Part shown: in pieces, positions 37,567 through 47,273 of the stretch
Numbering within the stretch: position 1 is the stretch's first letter
Layout: each line of letters opens with the position of its first letter
Origin: Acidovorax sp. DW039
GTDB taxonomy: Bacteria > Pseudomonadota > Gammaproteobacteria > Burkholderiales > Burkholderiaceae_C
Direction: 5' to 3'
Length of the DNA stretch: 64,000 bases
NCBI RefSeq assembly: GCF_037101375.1
Contig: NZ_AP029019.1
Coordinates: forward strand, 4,703,001-4,767,000
The notes under the pieces: model-generated
Told to the model about the DNA's origin: nothing
Database searches by the model: none
What the model saw: the letters and a program-made list of their open reading frames with translations, nothing else
Position numbers and translations under genes: made by a program

Positions 37567-39525
37567 TCAGTTGCTCAACACCAGCTGCACGCTGTCGCCG
37601 TTGTACACAGCGGTCGCCTTGAAGCCCGCCACGGTGATGGTGCTGAACGTGCCCTGCACGCGCTTGGCGCGCAGCAGCGTCAGCGTGTCGCCCGCCTTGG
37701 GCGTGTAACCGGCGCGGAAAGTGACGGACAGAGGGCCTGCCAAAGTGGCCACGCCTGCGGTGCTGATCGTACCTGCATCGCCTGCGCCCAGTTGCAGGGC
37801 CAAGGTGCCAGTGGCGGTTTGGGTCAGGCCACCGGGCAGTTCCACAGGGGCGGTGGTGTTGGTCAGCAGCGTGCCACCGGCCACATACACCGCACCCGTG
37901 CCCAGGGCCTTGGCGGCGTCGGCGCGCACGGTGCCGCCGGCAATTTCAGTACCGCCGCTGTAGGTGCTGGTGCCCGCCAGGGCCAGCGTGCCCGTGCCGC
38001 GCTTGGTCAGCTTGCCCGCACCGGCAATGTTGTTGCGCCACACGTCCAGGACATGAAAGCCGCCCAAGGCTGCGTCCATGGTCACGTCCACATCCCCGTT
38101 GAAAGCCCCGTAACCGCTGCCCGCAGCAAACAGGTTGAGGCGGCCAAAACCCTCGGCATCGTCCATGGCGGGGTAGCCGGATGACAGGGCGGTGGTTTTG
38201 AGCACCACGCGGCGCTGCGCGTCGCTCAGGTAGGGCAGGCGCGTTTCCAGCAGCACCTCGGCCCCCTTGGGCACCACGGCGGGCAGGGTGGTGCTGCCGA
38301 TGGGGGTGAAGCCGAAGACCAGGCGGCGCTGGTAGTTGAGCTGGTTGGTGGCGTAGTCGGCAAATCGGTCCTTGTCCGCACCCTGGCTACGCGCAAAGGC
38401 CGCGAACTGGGCGGGGGTGCTGGCCCCCACGGCGGCCATCAGGGTCTGGTGGGCCTGGTCATAGGTGGCCTGGCGGGTTTCCTTGCTGGCTGCGGCAATG
38501 TTGCCCAGCGCCGAGGCCTGGCCCAGGATGCGGCCGCTGATCACGTCCAGCGGCGAGTGCATGCCCGCCATGATGCGGTTTTCGCCCAGCTCCAGGCCAC
38601 GGGAGAGCATTTCGTGGAAGCGCTCGGGCACCAGGTAGGCCATGGCCACAGCATTGCGCACGGCTTCGGCGCTGTGGCCGCTGGGGTAGCCACCGTCGGT
38701 GGCGGGGGTGGTGCTGCGCGCGGGCAGCAGCGTGGGTTCCACCTTCACGTCGCTGCTCCAGCGCCAGGGGCGCGCGTATTTGTAGAAGCGCTTGGCGGGC
38801 TCGGTGGATGCGTTGGCGCCCATGCTCTCCACAAAGGCAATCACGCGGCCAAACTCGGGGTTGGCATCGCCGGACACACCCGTGTTGTTGCCCCCGTCGT
38901 TGTAGAGCGTGGTGGAGGCATCTGCGGGCACGGTGGTGATGGTGGTGGTCTGGCGGGCGGCCTTGCGCCAGGCATCGGTGAGCGGGCCCATGCCATCGGT
39001 CACGCTGTAGTTCTTGCCGCGGCGGTCGTCAAAGTAGGCGGCCTGCGATTGGGCTGCAGTGCGGGCGGTAGTGGTGCGCACCACAAAGTCGATGTTTTCC
39101 TTGTGCACAGCGGCGTTCTTGACCTTGCCATCGGTGGCGTCGCCGGGGATGCCTGTCCAGGTAGAGGCCACAACCGCTGGAAAGCCATTGGCTGCGGACG
39201 CTGTCTGCCCGGCATCCACCAGACGGGTGCTGGGCTCCCAGATGTCCAGAAAGCCCGAGAGCACGCGCACACCGGCGTTGGTGTCCACGGTGGCATAGCG
39301 GGCATCGCCACGCTGGTTGGTGGCGGCGGTGTCTACGAAGGCGGTGGCAGAGGGCACAGGGGCCGTGTCCACCGTGCCCAGCGCCTGGGGCATGGCGGGG
39401 GTGGCAGGCTCGTCTCCTCCCCCACCGCCGCCGCAGGCAGCCAGGGCAACCAGAACGGCCAGCGAGGTATAGCGCAAGCGGCCACCGGCAGGTGTCTGGG
39501 CGGGAGCAAAACGAGCGAGCAACAT
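37567..39525 (-). CDS. Lipoprotein PAP2-type phosphatase with autotransporter-like beta repeats
   Basis: Predicted exported phosphatase of 652 residues. Start ATG 39525 gives a lipobox LAAC with Cys31 followed by a run of Gly; the frame is open to 39618 but lacks a signal there. The PAP2/haloperoxidase-type catalytic motifs appear in order: KYARPWRW (about 250), YPSGHSAEA (about 278) and SRGLELGENRIMAGMHSPLD (about 305-324). From about 510 the sequence changes to LTKRGTGTLALAGTSTYSGG, a passenger-associated beta-strand repeat typical of autotransporters, then more beta-rich sequence ending LVLSN. No beta-barrel follows, so surface display would depend on the lipid anchor. The substrate is unknown. 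Confidence 0.85.
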   Translation of the reverse strand: MLLARFAPAQTPAGGRLRYTSLAVLVALAACGGGGGGDEPATPAMPQALGTVDTAPVPSATAFVDTAATNQRGDARYATVDTNAGVRVLSGFLDIWEPSTRLVDAGQTASAANGFPAVVASTWTGIPGDATDGKVKNAAVHKENIDFVVRTTTARTAAQSQAAYFDDRRGKNYSVTDGMGPLTDAWRKAARQTTTITTVPADASTTLYNDGGNNTGVSGDANPEFGRVIAFVESMGANASTEPAKRFYKYARPWRWSSDVKVEPTLLPARSTTPATDGGYPSGHSAEAVRNAVAMAYLVPERFHEMLSRGLELGENRIMAGMHSPLDVISGRILGQASALGNIAAASKETRQATYDQAHQTLMAAVGASTPAQFAAFARSQGADKDRFADYATNQLNYQRRLVFGFTPIGSTTLPAVVPKGAEVLLETRLPYLSDAQRRVVLKTTALSSGYPAMDDAEGFGRLNLFAAGSGYGAFNGDVDVTMDAALGGFHVLDVWRNNIAGAGKLTKRGTGTLALAGTSTYSGGTEIAGGTVRADAAKALGTGAVYVAGGTLLTNTTAPVELPGGLTQTATGTLALQLGAGDAGTISTAGVATLAGPLSVTFRAGYTPKAGDTLTLLRAKRVQGTFSTITVAGFKATAVYNGDSVQLVLSN

Positions 39526-39646
39526 GGAGGGCAACCTGTCAGAGAGTAAAGCGCAGGATGCTAGAAAGCCGTTGTGAAAACTGCGTGACAGACCGCAGAG
39601 AGCGGTCAGGGCCGCCACGCCGCAGCGTGGCGTTGCAGAGGGAGAA

Positions 39647-40551: not shown

Positions 40552-41331
40552 TCAAAAGAGGCCTCGCAGCGAAGCAAAGCGCACCGCCTGGGCGCGGGTG
40601 CGCACCTGCAGCTTGCGGTAGATGTTGCGCAGGTGGGTGTTCACCGTCATGGCACTGATGAACAGGCGGGCGCCAATCTCGGTGCTGGTGTAGCCACTGG
40701 CCACCATGCGCAGGATTTCCTTCTCGCGGGCAGAGAGCTTGTCGGCGTCGTCGGGCGTGCGGCGCTTGGATTGCGGAGCGTTGGAGCGGTCAAACCGCTG
40801 CAGCAGCCGTCGCGCAATATGGGGCGTGATGGAAGCCCCGCCGTTGGCCACCTGCAGCACCGTCTGCGCATAGTTGCCAAACCACGAGTTCTTGCCCACA
40901 AAGCCTGCGGCTCCCAGTTCAAAGGCGCGCAGCACCTGCTCGTCGTTCTCCATCACCGAGATCACCACGGCCTGCGCGGTGGGGCGGTAGGACTTGAAGA
41001 ACTCCAGCACTTCAAACGCCTCGCCATCCCCCAGATTCAGGTCCACCAGCAGCACATCGAACTCATGCTGCCGAATGGCGCGCCGCCCCTCACGCACGCT
41101 GCAGGCTTGTGCCACCAGCAAGGTGCGGGGGTCGGCCATCAGTTCCTGCGCAATCACGCGGCGGATGTGCGGATCGTCATCAATCAGCAGCACGCGCACC
41201 GGGCTGGCCTCCTGGCCCATCAGGAAGGCAGGCCATACGGAAGGTGGGTTTTCATAGGTTGAGAACTGCCCGGGCAGGCCGGGCTGCAAGGGGGTTGCTT
41301 GAGAAAGATCAAGTGGTTCGAGGTTGCTCAC
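40552..41331 (-). CDS. NarL/FixJ-family response regulator
   Basis: Response regulator partner of the kinase downstream. The receiver domain has IDDDPHIRR and phospho-acceptor Asp in LLVDLNLGDGE; the C-terminal LuxR-type helix-turn-helix reads LSAREKEILRMVASGYTSTE and later MTVNTHLRNIYRKL. Two starts are possible. GTG 41331 has AGGAG 9 bases upstream and gives 259 residues with a 42-residue extension (Asp97). ATG 41220 gives a canonical length (Asp60) but lacks a ribosome site. I keep GTG with moderate confidence. It is transcribed away from the secreted repeat protein and CsgG-like genes and is a reasonable regulator for them, much as CsgD is for curli. Confidence 0.88.
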   Translation of the reverse strand: MSNLEPLDLSQATPLQPGLPGQFSTYENPPSVWPAFLMGQEASPVRVLLIDDDPHIRRVIAQELMADPRTLLVAQACSVREGRRAIRQHEFDVLLVDLNLGDGEAFEVLEFFKSYRPTAQAVVISVMENDEQVLRAFELGAAGFVGKNSWFGNYAQTVLQVANGGASITPHIARRLLQRFDRSNAPQSKRRTPDDADKLSAREKEILRMVASGYTSTEIGARLFISAMTVNTHLRNIYRKLQVRTRAQAVRFASLRGLF

Positions 41332-41746
41332 GATTACAAACTCCTGCGATGCCCCATCTTTGCGGGGGCGTGTGTCCGCTCTCCGGGCCTGACGATGCAA
41401 CAAAACGTGTGTTTCACATTCAGCATCGCACAAAATTTGCAAATCTCACAATTAGTTACTACCAAGCTCTTTTTGGGGCGCCATCAGCACAATGCGGCGC
41501 AACGCCAGTCCTGGTGCGGGCTGGCACAGACATCGGTAACAAACATCTCCACTTTCTCAGGTAGCGCACGCGATGTATTCGTGACTTGGCGCACCGCACA
41601 GACACTGCAGTCAGACACCACGCAGCGGTGATCGGAAAGCGGCCCGCGGGGCCTGATCCACCCGCTGTGTGATGTCCCTCCACTGCCTTGCAGAACATCA
41701 TTTCTGCAAGGCGGACCTGTAGACCCACATACCTGAAGGATCTGTC
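41332..41746. promoter_or_regulatory. Divergent control region of the CsgG-like locus
   Basis: 415 bp without a gene. An AT-rich stretch around 41405-41470 (CACAAAATTTGCAAATCTCA and neighbours) contrasts with the surrounding GC-rich DNA and likely contains the promoters. Close to the secreted-protein gene is a perfect inverted repeat, CCTTGCAGAA-CATCAT-TTCTGCAAGG (41686-41711), 35 bp before the start codon and so probably in the 5' leader. A good ribosome site (GAAGGAT) precedes the ATG at 41747. Confidence 0.55.
41686..41711 (+). promoter_or_regulatory. Hairpin/operator CCTTGCAGAA-N6-TTCTGCAAGG
   Basis: Perfect 10-bp inverted repeat upstream of the repetitive secreted-protein gene. It could be a 5' leader hairpin stabilising an abundant mRNA or a binding site for the divergent response regulator; sequence alone does not decide. 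Confidence 0.5.
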
Positions 41747-42220
41747 ATGAAAACCCTTGCTTTCATCGCCCTGAGCATCGTCGCCTCCGCTGCCATGGCC
41801 ACCGGCCCTGTGTCCTCCACGCCAGACATCACGATCTCTGGCAAGTCTCTGCAGTCCGCATCGCTGACTTCCACAGCAGCCACCAACCACTCGACTGGCT
41901 CCAAGAGCGAGGCCTTCCAGAACCTGGCCACCAACACGGGCAACGTCACCATCCGCGGTGATTCGGCACAGGTCGTGACCAGCTTTGGCAGCAACATCAA
42001 CAACACTGCCAGCGGCAGCGATGCCTACGCCAGCCAGAACCTGTCCACCAACGTGGGCGAAGTCACCGTGACTGGCCTGTCGCTGCAAAACACTACGCTG
42101 GCCGGCGCATTCGTCGCCAACGTCTCCGCTGGCAGCAACAGCAAGGCCGTTCAGAACGTGGCGACCAACAACGCCTGCTTCACCTGCCAGCCCACCAAGA
42201 CCAGCGGCTGGCCTCACTGA
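41747..42220 (+). CDS. Secreted protein with three 39-residue repeats (candidate amyloid-like subunit)
   Basis: Exported protein of 157 residues. Signal peptide MKTLAFIALSIVASAAMA, cleaved after residue 18. Residues 28-66, 67-105 and 106-144 align as three 39-residue repeats without gaps: each starts (I/V)T(I/V)-x-G-x-S-x-Q, has a Asn near position 20, G-S at 24-25, and QN-x-x-TN near positions 31-36. Gln and Asn at regular positions with Ser, Gly and Thr elsewhere is the style of functional amyloid subunits such as curlin or of holdfast-anchor proteins. The C-terminus has CFTC and no membrane anchor. No match to a known family by recall. A strong hairpin follows the stop, and a CsgG/HfaB-like pore gene lies downstream. 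Confidence 0.75.
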   Translation: MKTLAFIALSIVASAAMATGPVSSTPDITISGKSLQSASLTSTAATNHSTGSKSEAFQNLATNTGNVTIRGDSAQVVTSFGSNINNTASGSDAYASQNLSTNVGEVTVTGLSLQNTTLAGAFVANVSAGSNSKAVQNVATNNACFTCQPTKTSGWPH

Positions 42221-42266
42221 GCTCTTCTTGCCCGGGCTGGCCACCAGCCAGCCCCGCAAGGTCTTT

Positions 42267-42310
42267 GAGAGCCTGTCCACGATCTCACAGGGGATCGTGA
42301 ACAGGCTCTC
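42267..42310 (+). promoter_or_regulatory. Strong hairpin between the repeat-protein gene and the next gene
   Basis: GAGAGCCTGTCCACGATC and its inverse (42293-42310, one mismatch) form an 18-bp stem with an 8-base loop, 46 bp after the stop and 83 bp before the next start. No U run follows, so complete termination is unlikely; mRNA processing or 3'-end protection that favours the first gene over downstream genes is plausible. Confidence 0.65.
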
Positions 42311-42392
42311 ACACAGGAGTCCACCTGACGGGCCACGCACGGCGCCCGATCAGGCTCGCTCCATAGTTTTTGATTCCCCAGGAGGCGTCTCC

Positions 42393-42833
42393 ATGAACCC
42401 ACACAACGCTCTGCGTGGCCTTGCCGCCATGGCAGCCCTTGCGGCGGGCCTGGCACACGGGCCCCTGGCACAAGCCCAGGCACCCGGCGAAGACCCCGTG
42501 GTGCTGACCAAACACCTCACCGTGCAGATGCAGCCCACCGGCACGGCAGCCACCTCAGGCCAGCTCGAGGGCAATGGCTCCATGCCTTCGTGGCTGCGCG
42601 CACGCATCGCCCGCTACGAAGCCAAAGCCTTTTCCACCGACGGCTCCTCCGGTGTCCTGAGCGACAACGATGTGGTGACCACCGCCAGCGCCCAAGGCAT
42701 GCAAAAGACATGCGTGCAGGAAGTGGGCAGCAACACGGTGGCAGGGGCAGGCTCCGGCACATCCAAATACGGTCCCAACCAGACCGCCCAGGTGGTGGTG
42801 TTGCGCGGAGATCTGGTCAATATCTGCAGATAG
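42393..42833 (+). CDS. Small secreted protein of the CsgG-like locus
   Basis: Exported protein of 146 residues; ATG 42393 is preceded by AGGAGG and starts a signal peptide (MNPHNALRGLAAMAALAAGL, AQAQA). No family recognised. The mature part has two Cys (TCVQEVGSNTVAG and NICR at the very end), suggesting a disulphide, and a C-terminal beta-like stretch TAQVVVLRGDLVNICR. Its position between the repeat protein and the CsgG-like pore is that of CsgE/CsgF- or HfaA-type accessory proteins, but no sequence similarity to those is claimed. Confidence 0.7.
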   Translation: MNPHNALRGLAAMAALAAGLAHGPLAQAQAPGEDPVVLTKHLTVQMQPTGTAATSGQLEGNGSMPSWLRARIARYEAKAFSTDGSSGVLSDNDVVTTASAQGMQKTCVQEVGSNTVAGAGSGTSKYGPNQTAQVVVLRGDLVNICR

Positions 42834-43040
42834 GCATCACCCCGAAAGGTGCACCCCGTGCGGCACCCGAGGGCATCGTTCCTGGCACCCATGGCATTTC
42901 TGGCTTCCCACCCCACAGCGCGTGCCCTGCGCGCATGGCGCACTGCGCTGCTTGCGCTGGCTTCACTGTTTCCGTTCACTGGCCCTGTCATTCGCCCCGT
43001 CATTCGCCCTGTCATCGGCACCCGCCGCAGGAGAGATTCC

Positions 43041-44807
43041 ATGCCTTGCCCTCCCTCGCACCGCGCGGCCCGACCACACCGCCTGCGCATGACAGTTTCG
43101 CTGCTCGTGCTCGGCGCGCTTGCACTCAGCGGTTGCAGCACGCCCATGGACCCACGGCGCGACAGGGCTTTTGCAGAGCAGGCTTCCGTGACCGACCGGC
43201 CTACGGTGCGCCCCACCCGGTCGTTCTCCAGCTTCTCCGACTCGCTCATGTGCATGGACCACATGCTGCGCGCCGCCCAGGTGCCCACCACGCTGATCAC
43301 CAGCAAGCAGATTCCCGACTATTCGGGCCGCGTGGCAGTGGGCAGCAAGGACATGGTCATCACCGCGCTGTCGCAGATGTCCCGCCTGAGCAATGCCTTC
43401 CGCTATGTGGACTACGAAGTGGACATTGCCCGCCAGGACACGGTGCAAAACCTCACCACCATCCTGCTGAACAACAACCAGATCCAGCTGCAGCGGCCCG
43501 CGCTGTACATCTCCGGAGCCATCTCGTTTGTGGACCAGAACGTCACCAGCAACCGGTTTGACAGTGGCATCTCTGGCCCCCGCGTGGACCTGGGCTACAG
43601 CCAAAGCCGCAATGCCACCATCATCGGGCTGGAAATGCATCTGGGCGACTTCCGCACCCGCACGCTGATCCCTGGGCTGGACTCGGCCAATGAAGTCATT
43701 GTCAGCACGGGCGGGCAGGGGCTGGACCTGGCCGGGCGTATCGGCACCTACGGCGTGCAGTTCAACGTGGGGCGCGACTACACCCAGGGCTCTGGCAGCG
43801 CGGTGCGCACGCTGGTCGATCTGGCCACCATCGAACTCGTGGGCAAATGGGCGCGCATTCCCTATTGGCAATGCCTCACGCTGGAGCAGAACCACCCCGA
43901 CTTCCAGCGCCAGCTGCGGGACTGGTTCAACGAGGGATCGCCGGCAGTACGCCTGCAGCTGGTCACACGCTCGCTCATCAGCCAGGGCTACCTGCCCGCC
44001 GGTGCCATGGCGGGCGTGGGCGCCGGGGCAGAACCCGCGGCCACACACAGCGCAGCCTTGCGCACCGCGCTCTCGCGCTTTCAGGCCGACCATGGCATGG
44101 TGGTGACGGGGGTGGTGGACTTTCCCACCTACGAGCGCGCGCTGCGCAACTTTGTCGGCCTCTCGCCGGATGGCACCCTGGCGCGCATCGGATGGGATTC
44201 CACCCACGCTGCTCCCACCGCATCGGTGCCCCCTGCAGAGGCTGTGCTGCCGCCCGTGTCCACCAGCAGCCTGATGTACGGGGCTGCACCGGTTGAGCGC
44301 AGCATTGACCTGCAGATTGAAAACGTGCTGCTGGACCGCACGGCCTTTGAAGTGGGCGAGCAGATATTCCTGTCGGCCACCGTGTCACGGGCCTCTTACC
44401 TGCAGTGCTTCCTGGCAGATGCCACGGGCACGGTGTTGCGCCTTTTGCCCAACCAGACCAACACCACCGGATGGGTCTCGGCCAACCAGGCACTGCGCAT
44501 TCCAGACTGGATGAGCCCCAACCCCGGATTTGTGATGGACGCCGCCAGCCCCGGTCGCGAAGGAGTGGCCTGCTTTGCGACCGATGAAGACAGCGTCTCC
44601 AGGCTGCCGGAAGACCTGCGCGGCCCGCCGCTCAAGCCCATCGAGAAGTACCGGACCCTGGAGAAGATCAACGAAGCCTTCGCGGCAAGCCTGGGAGCGA
44701 ACGGCTATACCGGCAACGCCATTTACTGGAACGTGGTGCCCCGGCGCGCCAGTGCGGCGGCCCAGCCAGCACCAGGCAAGTCTGGCCCTCCTGCCGCACG
44801 CCCATGA
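43041..44807 (+). CDS. CsgG/HfaB-like outer-membrane lipoprotein with peptidoglycan-binding and DUF4384 domains
   Basis: Lipoprotein of 588 residues. ATG 43041 is chosen because AGGAGAGATTCC precedes it and a lipoprotein signal (LALSGC, Cys32) follows; the open frame extends to a weak GTG at 42849. Residues about 100-276 read as a CsgG/HfaB-type pore domain (SKDMVITALSQMSRLSNAF, YISGAISFVDQNVTSN, TLVDLATIELVGKWARI). Residues about 335-375 are a peptidoglycan-binding-type helical unit (TALSRFQADHGMVVTGVVD). Residues about 420-516 are DUF4384-like (SIDLQIENVLLD, EVGEQIFLSATVSRASYLQC). CsgG forms the curli secretion channel; the added domains suggest a cell-wall-anchored variant. Function as exporter of the 41747 product is inference. 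The stop overlaps the next start (ATGA). Confidence 0.78.
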   Translation: MPCPPSHRAARPHRLRMTVSLLVLGALALSGCSTPMDPRRDRAFAEQASVTDRPTVRPTRSFSSFSDSLMCMDHMLRAAQVPTTLITSKQIPDYSGRVAVGSKDMVITALSQMSRLSNAFRYVDYEVDIARQDTVQNLTTILLNNNQIQLQRPALYISGAISFVDQNVTSNRFDSGISGPRVDLGYSQSRNATIIGLEMHLGDFRTRTLIPGLDSANEVIVSTGGQGLDLAGRIGTYGVQFNVGRDYTQGSGSAVRTLVDLATIELVGKWARIPYWQCLTLEQNHPDFQRQLRDWFNEGSPAVRLQLVTRSLISQGYLPAGAMAGVGAGAEPAATHSAALRTALSRFQADHGMVVTGVVDFPTYERALRNFVGLSPDGTLARIGWDSTHAAPTASVPPAEAVLPPVSTSSLMYGAAPVERSIDLQIENVLLDRTAFEVGEQIFLSATVSRASYLQCFLADATGTVLRLLPNQTNTTGWVSANQALRIPDWMSPNPGFVMDAASPGREGVACFATDEDSVSRLPEDLRGPPLKPIEKYRTLEKINEAFAASLGANGYTGNAIYWNVVPRRASAAAQPAPGKSGPPAARP

Positions 44808-46066
44808 ACACGCTGGCAGTGCCTGCCTTTGACCCCAGCGCCCGGGTTGTGCAGGCAGCGATACTCGCGGTGAGCTTGTGGGCCTTTTCTGGCGCGGATG
44901 CCCATGCGGGAGCCGCGGCCGTCGCGGAGCCCTCGCACACCGCCATAGAGCCATCCGAGGCTCGGGTCCACTCGCCGCAGTGGACACCTGCCGACGAGGG
45001 CGACCTGGCCCAGGCGCTGCGGATATTGCGAGCCACAGCGCAGTCAGAGGCTCCTCAGCGCCCGCCAACTCCTTCATTCTCTTCTTCATCGGCGGCAGCA
45101 CCGCCCTCTGCTGCAGCAACGGCGGCGTGGCGGCTGGGTTTGCTGGCATTGCACGGCATCGGCATGGGCCCGGACACCAGCCAGGCACAGCACTGGTTTG
45201 AGCGTGCACAGGCGCTGGGGCACCCCATGGCTCCGGCTGGGCTGGCGTGGTGCGACATCAGCGGTTGCGTCACCGCCCCGAACCCTGCGGCTGCCGGGCG
45301 ATGGACTGCTCTGCTGGCGCGCACGGCCCCTGGTCTGGCCAAGTACCTGGACTGGCACGTTGCCCGCGCCCTGGCGCCGCTGAGCGTTGGCACCACAGCC
45401 ACCACAGGCAGCACCCCCAATCCTCGCAATGTGCAGGGCAACCCTGCAGGGGCTGCGCGCACCGCCGCCGAACCGCATCCGCTGCTCAGGTCCGCGGCGC
45501 AAGCGGGCAACGCACAGGCCATGAACGCGCTGGGCCTGGAATACCTGGCCAGCGGGCAGACCGAGAAGGCGCTGGAGCAGTTTCGCGCTGCGGCCAAGCA
45601 ATCCAGCGCTGCAGCTGCCAATGCCCAGATGCTGGCCGACCAGATGCAGCAGCGCCGCGGGCCACTGCCGACCACGGGACAACCACCCGCACCGAATGCA
45701 TCCGAAAAAGAGCTTGGGACGGAAGCCCGGGCCTCTTCCGGGGCAGACCTCTACACCCAGGCCCAGCGCTATCACCGGGGCGACGGGGTGCCGTCGAATT
45801 ACACCGAGGCCGTGCGGCTGTACCAGGCTGCAGCAAGCCGCGGGGATGCCCGTGCGCGCAAGATGCTGGAGCTGATCTTCTCCCGCCCCGCCCCCGGAGG
45901 CGGCCTGGACCCGGCGTGGATGCAGCAGCTCGCCAGTCTGCCCATGCAGGCGCAGGGACTCACACGCACGGCTCCGCTACCACTGAGCCCGCAGGGCTGG
46001 CAGCAAGACCCCACGCCGCTATACCACCTGATTCCCCCGCAGTGGCAACGGATGGCAGACCGATGA
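44804..46066 (+). CDS. Sel1-like repeat protein of the CsgG-like locus
   Basis: Exported or periplasmic protein of 420 residues with Sel1/TPR-type helical repeats. Clear units: ALHGIGMGPDTSQAQHWFER-AQALGHP, LLRSAAQAGNAQAMNALGLE (with a TEKALEQF helix), and YHRGDGVPSNYTEAVRLYQA-AASRGDARA. A weak signal-like hydrophobic segment is at residues 16-32; regions between repeats are Ala/Pro/Thr-rich. Sel1 proteins assemble complexes. Coupling through ATGA to the CsgG-like gene marks it as part of the same machinery. A 7-bp stem AGCGCAG-GACG-CTGCGCT follows the stop (46068-46085). Confidence 0.78.
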   Translation: MNTLAVPAFDPSARVVQAAILAVSLWAFSGADAHAGAAAVAEPSHTAIEPSEARVHSPQWTPADEGDLAQALRILRATAQSEAPQRPPTPSFSSSSAAAPPSAAATAAWRLGLLALHGIGMGPDTSQAQHWFERAQALGHPMAPAGLAWCDISGCVTAPNPAAAGRWTALLARTAPGLAKYLDWHVARALAPLSVGTTATTGSTPNPRNVQGNPAGAARTAAEPHPLLRSAAQAGNAQAMNALGLEYLASGQTEKALEQFRAAAKQSSAAAANAQMLADQMQQRRGPLPTTGQPPAPNASEKELGTEARASSGADLYTQAQRYHRGDGVPSNYTEAVRLYQAAASRGDARARKMLELIFSRPAPGGGLDPAWMQQLASLPMQAQGLTRTAPLPLSPQGWQQDPTPLYHLIPPQWQRMADR

Positions 46067-46115
46067 CAGCGCAGGACGCTGCGCTACACGGCAAAGAAGA
46101 ACCGCGGTCGGGCGC

Positions 46116-47273
46116 TCAACGCGGCCACAGCACCCACAGACGCAGGTTTTGCTTGAGCCGCCCGGCAATATCACCAGCCTCAGGCCCCCAGCCGGTGAAG
46201 TAGTCTGCGCGCACCGCGCCCAGAATGGCGCTGCCCGTGTCCTGGGCCAGAACAAGGCGATTGAGTTGCAGCTGCGGGCCGCTGGAGGCCAGCCATACCG
46301 GCGTGCCGTAGGGAATGCTCTGCCGGTCCACGGCGATCGAACGACCGGGCGTGAGGGCCACACCCTGCGCGCCACGCGGGCCAAAGGCCGCGTCCATGCC
46401 CACCAGCGGTTCCTCTTTGAAGAACACATAGCGCGGGTTGGTCCACATCAACTCATTGGTGCGCTGCGGGTTGGCAGCCAGCCAGGCGCGAATGCCGGGC
46501 CAGGTGGCGTCGCGGGTGTAGCCCTGGTCCAGCAGCCAGCGGCCAATGCTGCCGTAGGGCTGGTCGTTGGTGCCCGCATAGGCCACCCGCACCAGGCTGG
46601 TGGAACCGTCCGCCTCGGTGATGCGCAGGCGGCCCGATCCCTGGATGTGCAGCACCATGGACTCCACCGGGTCTCGCAGCCACGCAATGGCACGGCCTTG
46701 CAGCGCGGCCTGGGCTTCGGGCAGGGTCTCGATCTGCTGGCGGGTGTACCAGGGCTTGCGGGCGCCAAAGCCTGCGGGCAGGCGGTAGATGGGCACGGTG
46801 AAGCCATTGCCCGGCACCCGGGAGGCCTCCATCATGGGCTCGTAGTAAGCGGTCAGCAGGCCATCCGGGTTGCCATCGACGGCCTCCACGCGGTAGGGCT
46901 GCAGGCGCGCCACCATCCAGGCACGCTGCTCGTCGGCCGTGGCAATGCTGAGCTGGCGCACCTCGCTGCACAGCGCAGTGAACGGAGCCACGGGGCGCTC
47001 GCAGCTCTTGATCCAGGCATTCCAGGCCTCATGCAAGGCATCGTCGCCAAAGCCTGGCAGTTCGGCCCAGCGCACAGGAGTCCACCGGCTCTTGGGTTGG
47101 GCCAAAGGAGGTGGCAGTGGCCCCGTGTCACCGGGCACTGCGTAAGGCGTGGTGGGCAAAGGTGCAGGCAAGCCCCCAGGGTACGAAGGGGATGGCGCAG
47201 GAGGGGTGGAGCACGCAACAAGCGTTCCTACAATCAGCGCCGTTGCAACCAGGCGCAGGAGTGTCAATTTCAT
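46116..47273 (-). CDS. mltA: Membrane-bound lytic murein transglycosylase A
   Basis: Outer-membrane lipoprotein of 385 residues that cleaves peptidoglycan glycan strands. Signal peptide with lipobox LVAC (Cys21). The MltA domain appears as GLLTAYYEPMMEASR, then DPVESMVLHIQGSGRL and YGSIGRWLLDQG. The 3D domain follows with IAVDRQSIPYGTPVWL and the catalytic region AQDTGSAILGAVRADYFTG. The start at 47273 forms a CATG with the start of a small plus-strand gene. It has no clear ribosome site of its own, and its promoter would have to lie within that gene. Confidence 0.95.
   Translation of the reverse strand: MKLTLLRLVATALIVGTLVACSTPPAPSPSYPGGLPAPLPTTPYAVPGDTGPLPPPLAQPKSRWTPVRWAELPGFGDDALHEAWNAWIKSCERPVAPFTALCSEVRQLSIATADEQRAWMVARLQPYRVEAVDGNPDGLLTAYYEPMMEASRVPGNGFTVPIYRLPAGFGARKPWYTRQQIETLPEAQAALQGRAIAWLRDPVESMVLHIQGSGRLRITEADGSTSLVRVAYAGTNDQPYGSIGRWLLDQGYTRDATWPGIRAWLAANPQRTNELMWTNPRYVFFKEEPLVGMDAAFGPRGAQGVALTPGRSIAVDRQSIPYGTPVWLASSGPQLQLNRLVLAQDTGSAILGAVRADYFTGWGPEAGDIAGRLKQNLRLWVLWPR

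Follow-up and report, generated by a model that had tools for sequence, protein, structure and literature searches.

In the window analysed here, a stretch of 64,000 nucleotides (C1:4703001-4767000) in the complete 5.2 Mb genome (two contigs) of Acidovorax sp. DW039, four genes lie in the same direction on the plus strand and encode a secreted repeat protein (SubA), a second small secreted protein (Sec2), a lipoprotein that is a pore candidate (the 43041 product) and a Sel1-repeat protein; the genes of a response regulator and a sensor histidine kinase are divergent from them on the minus strand (Table 1). These genes probably encode a dedicated secretion system for a surface fibre built of repeats and of the functional-amyloid kind. 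Among the amyloid export systems of Gram-negative bacteria two are well studied, curli and Fap, each with its own subunit, pore and helpers. The operon is best read as a system of the Comamonadaceae that joins a Fap-like subunit to a pore of the HfaB/CsgG class tied to peptidoglycan. Gene linkage, a predicted CsgG fold, a lipobox, a repeat lattice and a predicted solenoid were computed here; export and amyloid formation, and with them an amyloid-like surface system, are what we infer.

At least 129 loci were confirmed in a scan of named genomes, and the best 80 of them were analysed; they come from Acidovorax, Simplicispira, Polaromonas, Delftia, Comamonas, Hydrogenophaga, Limnohabitans, Ottowia and other genera, with outliers in Lysobacter, Azospirillum and one Rhodospirillales metagenome-assembled genome. 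Linkage was counted in 67 of the 80 loci, those whose flanks span no less than 3.5 kb upstream and 3 kb downstream; the other 13 were too short and were dropped. A SubA-like gene stands beside the pore gene in 64 of the 67, a Sec2-like gene in 63, a Sel1 gene in 63 and all three in 63, with queries partly taken from other loci and one locus (L146) matching by construction, being the same contig as L065, the source of several of them. The control neighbours MltA, OmpA and PAP2 were found in 2, 5 and 2 loci, respectively, and since 63 of the 67 loci keep all three partners, the association of these genes exceeds chance. The first-pass annotation had staked its reading beforehand on the four genes occurring together elsewhere, and in these 63 loci they do; the four loci short of the full set are all from Azospirillum and Rhodospirillales. 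The two-component system travels with the four genes in 46 of the 67 loci, as judged by the divergent regulator, and a kinase accompanies them on that side in 44. Six Acidovorax-type loci taken separately, with generous flanks, all have both genes divergent from the operon. The pore profile matched 88 of 397 genomes of the family at E <= 0.001, counting partial matches, a second system and the window's own genome, and the SubA profile matched none of 368 other genomes in a class-wide sample at E <= 0.01.

The first-pass annotation had likened the 43041 product to CsgG, and its predicted structure does have the CsgG fold. A lipobox (LSGC) ends at Cys32 and is present in 60 of the 82 rows of the pore alignment, in which some gene starts are uncertain; the alignment comprises 65 of 74 longer pore open reading frames (ORFs) and 16 of 120 listed proteins, and excludes two loci (L139 and L143) where the gene calls give the pore ORF in two pieces. 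DUF4384 was found at E 7.9e-13, and PG_binding_1 at E 8.2e-5, with 23.2 bits barely above the cut-off of 23. By sequence, the resemblance to CsgG and HfaB is weak. In fact, Pfam CsgG (PF03783) gave no match at E <= 1, the profile compared with a 6-row CsgG alignment reached a probability of 1.3, i.e. no direct match, and NCBIfam HfaB (NF037935) matched residues 27-268 with 19.6 bits (E 4.2e-4), below its cut-off of 300. In profile comparison the pore domain lies nearest to HfaB (probability 94.5, E 7.7e-8, against a 5-row HfaB alignment). From the DxTG to the AL motif the pore candidate has a loop of 11 residues, and the CsgG rows compared have one of 23-24; in CsgG this loop contains the constriction. 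The only match among PDB sequences, a vanadium haloperoxidase (E 0.028), was taken as chance. The window's own genome has no second match to the pore; its sole match to Pfam CsgG is a solo lipoprotein of 274 residues outside the operon (C1:1431971-1432444), whose neighbours, judged by eye, are an aspartyl-tRNA synthetase-like and a Nudix-like gene.

SubA is modelled by AlphaFold2 as a beta-solenoid of three 39-residue repeats, and among solved structures it matches the amyloid fibrils of FapC and CsgA best, FapC first, though weakly in both cases. Glutamines 36, 75 and 114, alanines 56, 95 and 134, Cys144 and Cys147 are invariant in an alignment of 51 rows, drawn from 32 of 79 SubA-like ORFs (around 157 residues long in most cases) and 18 of 23 proteins, and leaning to three-repeat forms. 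Three repeats are present in the window's SubA and in 136 of 203 SubA-like sequences, 39 being the commonest spacing, and a CxxC lies within the last 34 residues in 141 of the 203. For motif counts, two sequences of at least 400 residues were excluded: Q-X10-N-X10-Q occurs in 168 of the remaining 201 (9.7 after shuffling) and N-X3-G followed by QN in 177 (7.2 after shuffling).

These features recall Fap of Pseudomonas (fapABCDEF). In the part of PMC12392863 dealing with them, 94.2% of 1094 FapC genes encode three repeats, the usual repeat length being 38-39 residues; the corresponding part of PMC6173800 gives a CxxC as conserved in FapC and not in CsgA, and a Q/N-X10-Q/N spacing as common to CsgA, FapB and FapC. 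Judged from its sequence, SubA, with three repeats of about 39 residues and a C-terminal CxxC, is nearer to FapC than to CsgA in repeat length, repeat number and CxxC, and its repeat has the N-X3-G followed by QN. Moreover, the Fap-like register of SubA is suggestive: the observed score was reached in 16 of 20000 column permutations, in a test designed post hoc from both consensus sequences. Against a Fap-like subunit it must be said that the minimal Fap repeat, published as G-X4-N-X3-G-X6-N (PMC3792158, in the part concerned), is absent from the window's SubA and occurs in 10 of 201 relatives (4.1 after shuffling), and that SubA has no linkers between its repeats; with Q permitted at the last place, the count rises to 90 of 201 (6.6 after shuffling). 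SubA keeps the Q/N spacing and the N-X3-G/QN but lacks the exact minimal repeat; in sequence, then, it resembles FapC in architecture and register and departs from FapC at one defining position. Of the 185 SubA-profile matches 120 were listed, none of them under the name FapC, and the profile found neither FapC nor CsgA, nor anything amyloid, among PDB sequences, where its matches to proteins of lectin-like fold (E 0.029) were taken as chance. The system also differs from Fap in its pore, for which a CsgG fold is predicted here and which in Fap is FapF, a trimer forming a 12-stranded barrel (PMC6173800, in the part on the pore), and in the absence of a C39 peptidase among the four operon genes.

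Like curli, the system combines a lipidated pore candidate of CsgG fold with a small secreted repeat protein in which Gln/Asn recur at regular intervals, and the gene of its LuxR-family regulator diverges from that of the subunit. It differs in other respects. In the whole genome neither CsgF nor the curlin repeat has a match, and the best for CsgE is a single stretch elsewhere that stays below threshold (E 0.134, 14.7 bits, cut-off 25), in agreement with the absence of other curli genes noted in the first-pass annotation. SubA does not match the curlin repeat (PF07012) at E <= 1, and its profile reaches a probability of 0.6 against CsgA/B rows. The pore falls below Pfam CsgG, carries PG_binding_1 and DUF4384 and has the shorter DxTG-AL loop, and the regulator belongs to a full two-component pair and is not CsgD: its match to the CsgD family (59.5 bits, cut-off 250) covers only residues 196-290, so that by sequence the kinship is limited to the common LuxR-type DNA-binding domain. 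An ordinary curli operon was therefore rejected, and of the earlier interpretation the predicted CsgG fold, the linkage of the four genes and the accompanying two-component system stand, whereas the link to curli as such does not hold up in that form, SubA being no curlin by the sequence tests made.

Sec2 matched no family of Pfam or NCBIfam at E <= 1. In an alignment of 40 rows, drawn from 39 of 66 Sec2-like ORFs, five positions are invariant, two of them cysteines; the cysteine pair lies close to the end of the protein in all 40 rows, and the C-terminus is QVVVLRGDLVNIC or a near form. Short Sec2-like proteins with the same ending also stand beside more distant versions of the pore.

Concerning regulation, 11 of the 46 intergenic regions between regulator and subunit genes contain the GTTACTACC box (mean 0.05 and maximum 1 in shuffled sequences), and 28 contain the shorter ACTACC (5.0 in shuffled sequences); the box was picked post hoc from an alignment, and several of the loci counted are close relatives. 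The box is a candidate operator or promoter element. A sigma-70 promoter scan of 41300-46200 gave 0 sites, with 0.4 expected. No separate sensor domain was found in the window's kinase, whose N-terminus has two predicted membrane helices by eye, and five longer kinases scanned for sensor domains gave kinase domains only.

The following mechanism can be proposed. The NarL-type regulator and the kinase would switch on the divergent operon, a role suggested because the divergent layout and the box are conserved. SubA and Sec2, which like the Sel1 protein have signal-peptide-like N-termini by eye, would cross the inner membrane via Sec, and the 43041 lipoprotein, given its predicted fold, would oligomerize and insert as an outer-membrane pore of the CsgG/HfaB class, with PG_binding_1 as its tether to the cell wall. 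SubA may go through this pore unfolded and fold outside into the predicted three-rung beta-solenoid, and the solenoids may then stack end to end into a fibre. Sec2, with its one cysteine pair, probably fills the role of CsgB, CsgE or CsgF, nucleating, capping or holding the subunit at the pore, and the Sel1 protein would likely serve the pore as an adaptor in the periplasm.

Two relationships have to be weighed against this proposal, the first being HfaABD of the Caulobacterales. HfaB is regarded as the pore through which the amyloid-like HfaA is exported, and in Caulobacter it puts HfaA and HfaD on the surface, anchoring the holdfast polysaccharide (PMC6707917, in the part on Hfa). Apart from HfaB being the nearest profile relative, the two systems share a pore gene adjoining genes for small secreted proteins; unlike HfaB, this pore stays at 19.6 bits against the 300-bit cut-off and is about 250 residues longer, no HfaA or HfaD is recognisable here (no model of either was run), and gene order and two-component system differ. 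A holdfast anchor proper was rejected, the HfaB cut-off being far off and no HfaA recognisable, and was retained as a rival mechanism: an HfaABD-like anchor whose pore would put SubA and Sec2 outside to hold exopolysaccharide or capsule, with no fibre. We consider this unlikely, although it is the main rival, ahead of a periplasmic complex. The kinship of the pore, the surface placement of the holdfast anchors HfaA and HfaD by Caulobacter HfaB (same part of PMC6707917) and the peptidoglycan-binding domain, which suits anchoring, all speak for it; on the other hand, Sec2 is only 15-18% identical to HfaA rows (17-18% to three HfaA-position proteins), with no common motif, the short regular repeats of SubA are by eye unlike the HfaD-position genes of 402-432 residues in L072-L074, and no polysaccharide genes were seen adjoining the operon in the window, where no search was aimed at them. 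The second, more improbable still, is a CsgG-fold lipoprotein complex for envelope integrity or linked to peptidoglycan, with SubA and Sec2 as unexported periplasmic ligands; it would resemble relatives of the FlgT, PelC or LpoB kind, which have the core fold in common. That chance alone placed the repeat protein next to a functionally unrelated pore-like gene is very hard to believe and is refuted as far as genome context allows, as 63 of 67 loci hold all three partners in order, in many Comamonadaceae genera and beyond.

The surface fibre system preferred here is thus not curli, not HfaB by the family cut-off, and not Fap by minimal repeat or pore; its pore class is common to curli and HfaABD and its subunit layout to Fap. 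No description of it was found in the literature searched on HfaB, CsgG, curli, FapC and functional amyloid in Acidovorax or Burkholderiales, judged by title or abstract. We tentatively suggest, though with more doubt than confidence, a third type of outer-membrane amyloid export, in which a Fap-like three-rung solenoid, related or convergent, would pass a peptidoglycan-bolted CsgG/HfaB-class pore without the CsgG constriction loop, and the cysteine-paired Sec2 would replace CsgB, CsgE and CsgF. If the fibre reading is true, the operon mixes the curli and Fap types, with a FapC-resembling subunit, an HfaB/CsgG-resembling pore and new helpers. It would provide a candidate matrix fibre for widespread bacteria of soil, water and wastewater (Acidovorax, Comamonas, Delftia, Polaromonas, Hydrogenophaga, Limnohabitans and others), test which helper functions amyloid export really needs, and add to the CsgG-type pores available for engineering one whose loop is shorter. 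If the third type is real, amyloid subunit type and export pore type would recombine freely in evolution.

Table 1. Genes and elements of the locus, in window positions.
Feature	Position	Strand	Basis
Sensor histidine kinase, 280 aa	39647..40489	-	HisKA_3 E 1.1e-6, HATPase_c E 1.7e-13
NarL/LuxR-type response regulator	40552..41442 (longest ORF)	-	Response_reg E 2.6e-14, GerE E 7.8e-21
GTTACTACC box, regulator-SubA intergenic	41455..41463	+	Recurrence among intergenic regions
SubA, candidate secreted subunit, 157 aa	41747..42220	+	Signal peptide, three 39-residue repeats, C-terminal CxxC (Cys144, Cys147)
Sec2, small secreted partner, 146 aa	42393..42833	+	Signal peptide, invariant cysteines 107 and 145, C-terminal QVVVLRGDLVNIC
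Pore candidate, lipoprotein, 588 aa	43041..44807	+	CsgG-fold domain ~60-282, PG_binding_1 334-365, DUF4384 436-516
Sel1-repeat protein, 420 aa	44804..46066	+	Sel1 E 8.8e-12

Every gene described in the first-pass annotation was found at its place with the domains quoted (DUF4384, PG_binding_1, Sel1), and regulator and kinase are divergent from the secreted-protein operon as it had said, the kinase gene lying just beyond the coordinates it gave. The start of the Sel1 gene overlaps the stop of the pore gene as ATGA, and by codon statistics the regulator more likely starts at 41331, giving 259 aa. A gene for a PAP2/vanadium-haloperoxidase-like protein with a passenger-associated transport repeat (37567-39618, minus strand) adjoins the kinase gene and does not travel with the operon (2 of 67 loci). 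A gene of about 790 residues that recurs beyond the kinase was considered as a part of the system and rejected, both copies scanned being the housekeeping Tex.

Several loci depart from the layout of the window. A second operon form, in the nine loci L144-L152 and also in L140, has two short SubA-like genes followed by Sec2, the pore, Sel1 and a pentapeptide-repeat protein (P188), and no divergent regulator was found in L144-L152. In Azospirillum and Rhodospirillales (L153-L156), pore relatives adjoin OmpA-family genes, with no SubA, Sec2 or Sel1 at the usual places, and L154 and L156 have an additional second DUF4384-like gene. Two Acidovorax loci (L058 and L068) carry a paralogous third system, in the order 119-residue secreted protein, repeat protein of about 1170 residues, small secreted protein, CsgG/HfaB-like lipoprotein of 376-379 residues, Sel1-type gene and OmpA-family gene. 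In L067 (4825-9992), a more distant pore with a DUF4384-like tail stands beside curlin-like repeat proteins of 180 and 103 residues, two Sec2-like proteins ending in ICK/VCK and one OmpA-family gene. Finally, L070 and L071 hold HfaB-like pores from Burkholderiales, in the window's own family and order, with small secreted proteins as neighbours, joined in L070 by a repeat protein of 1781 residues.
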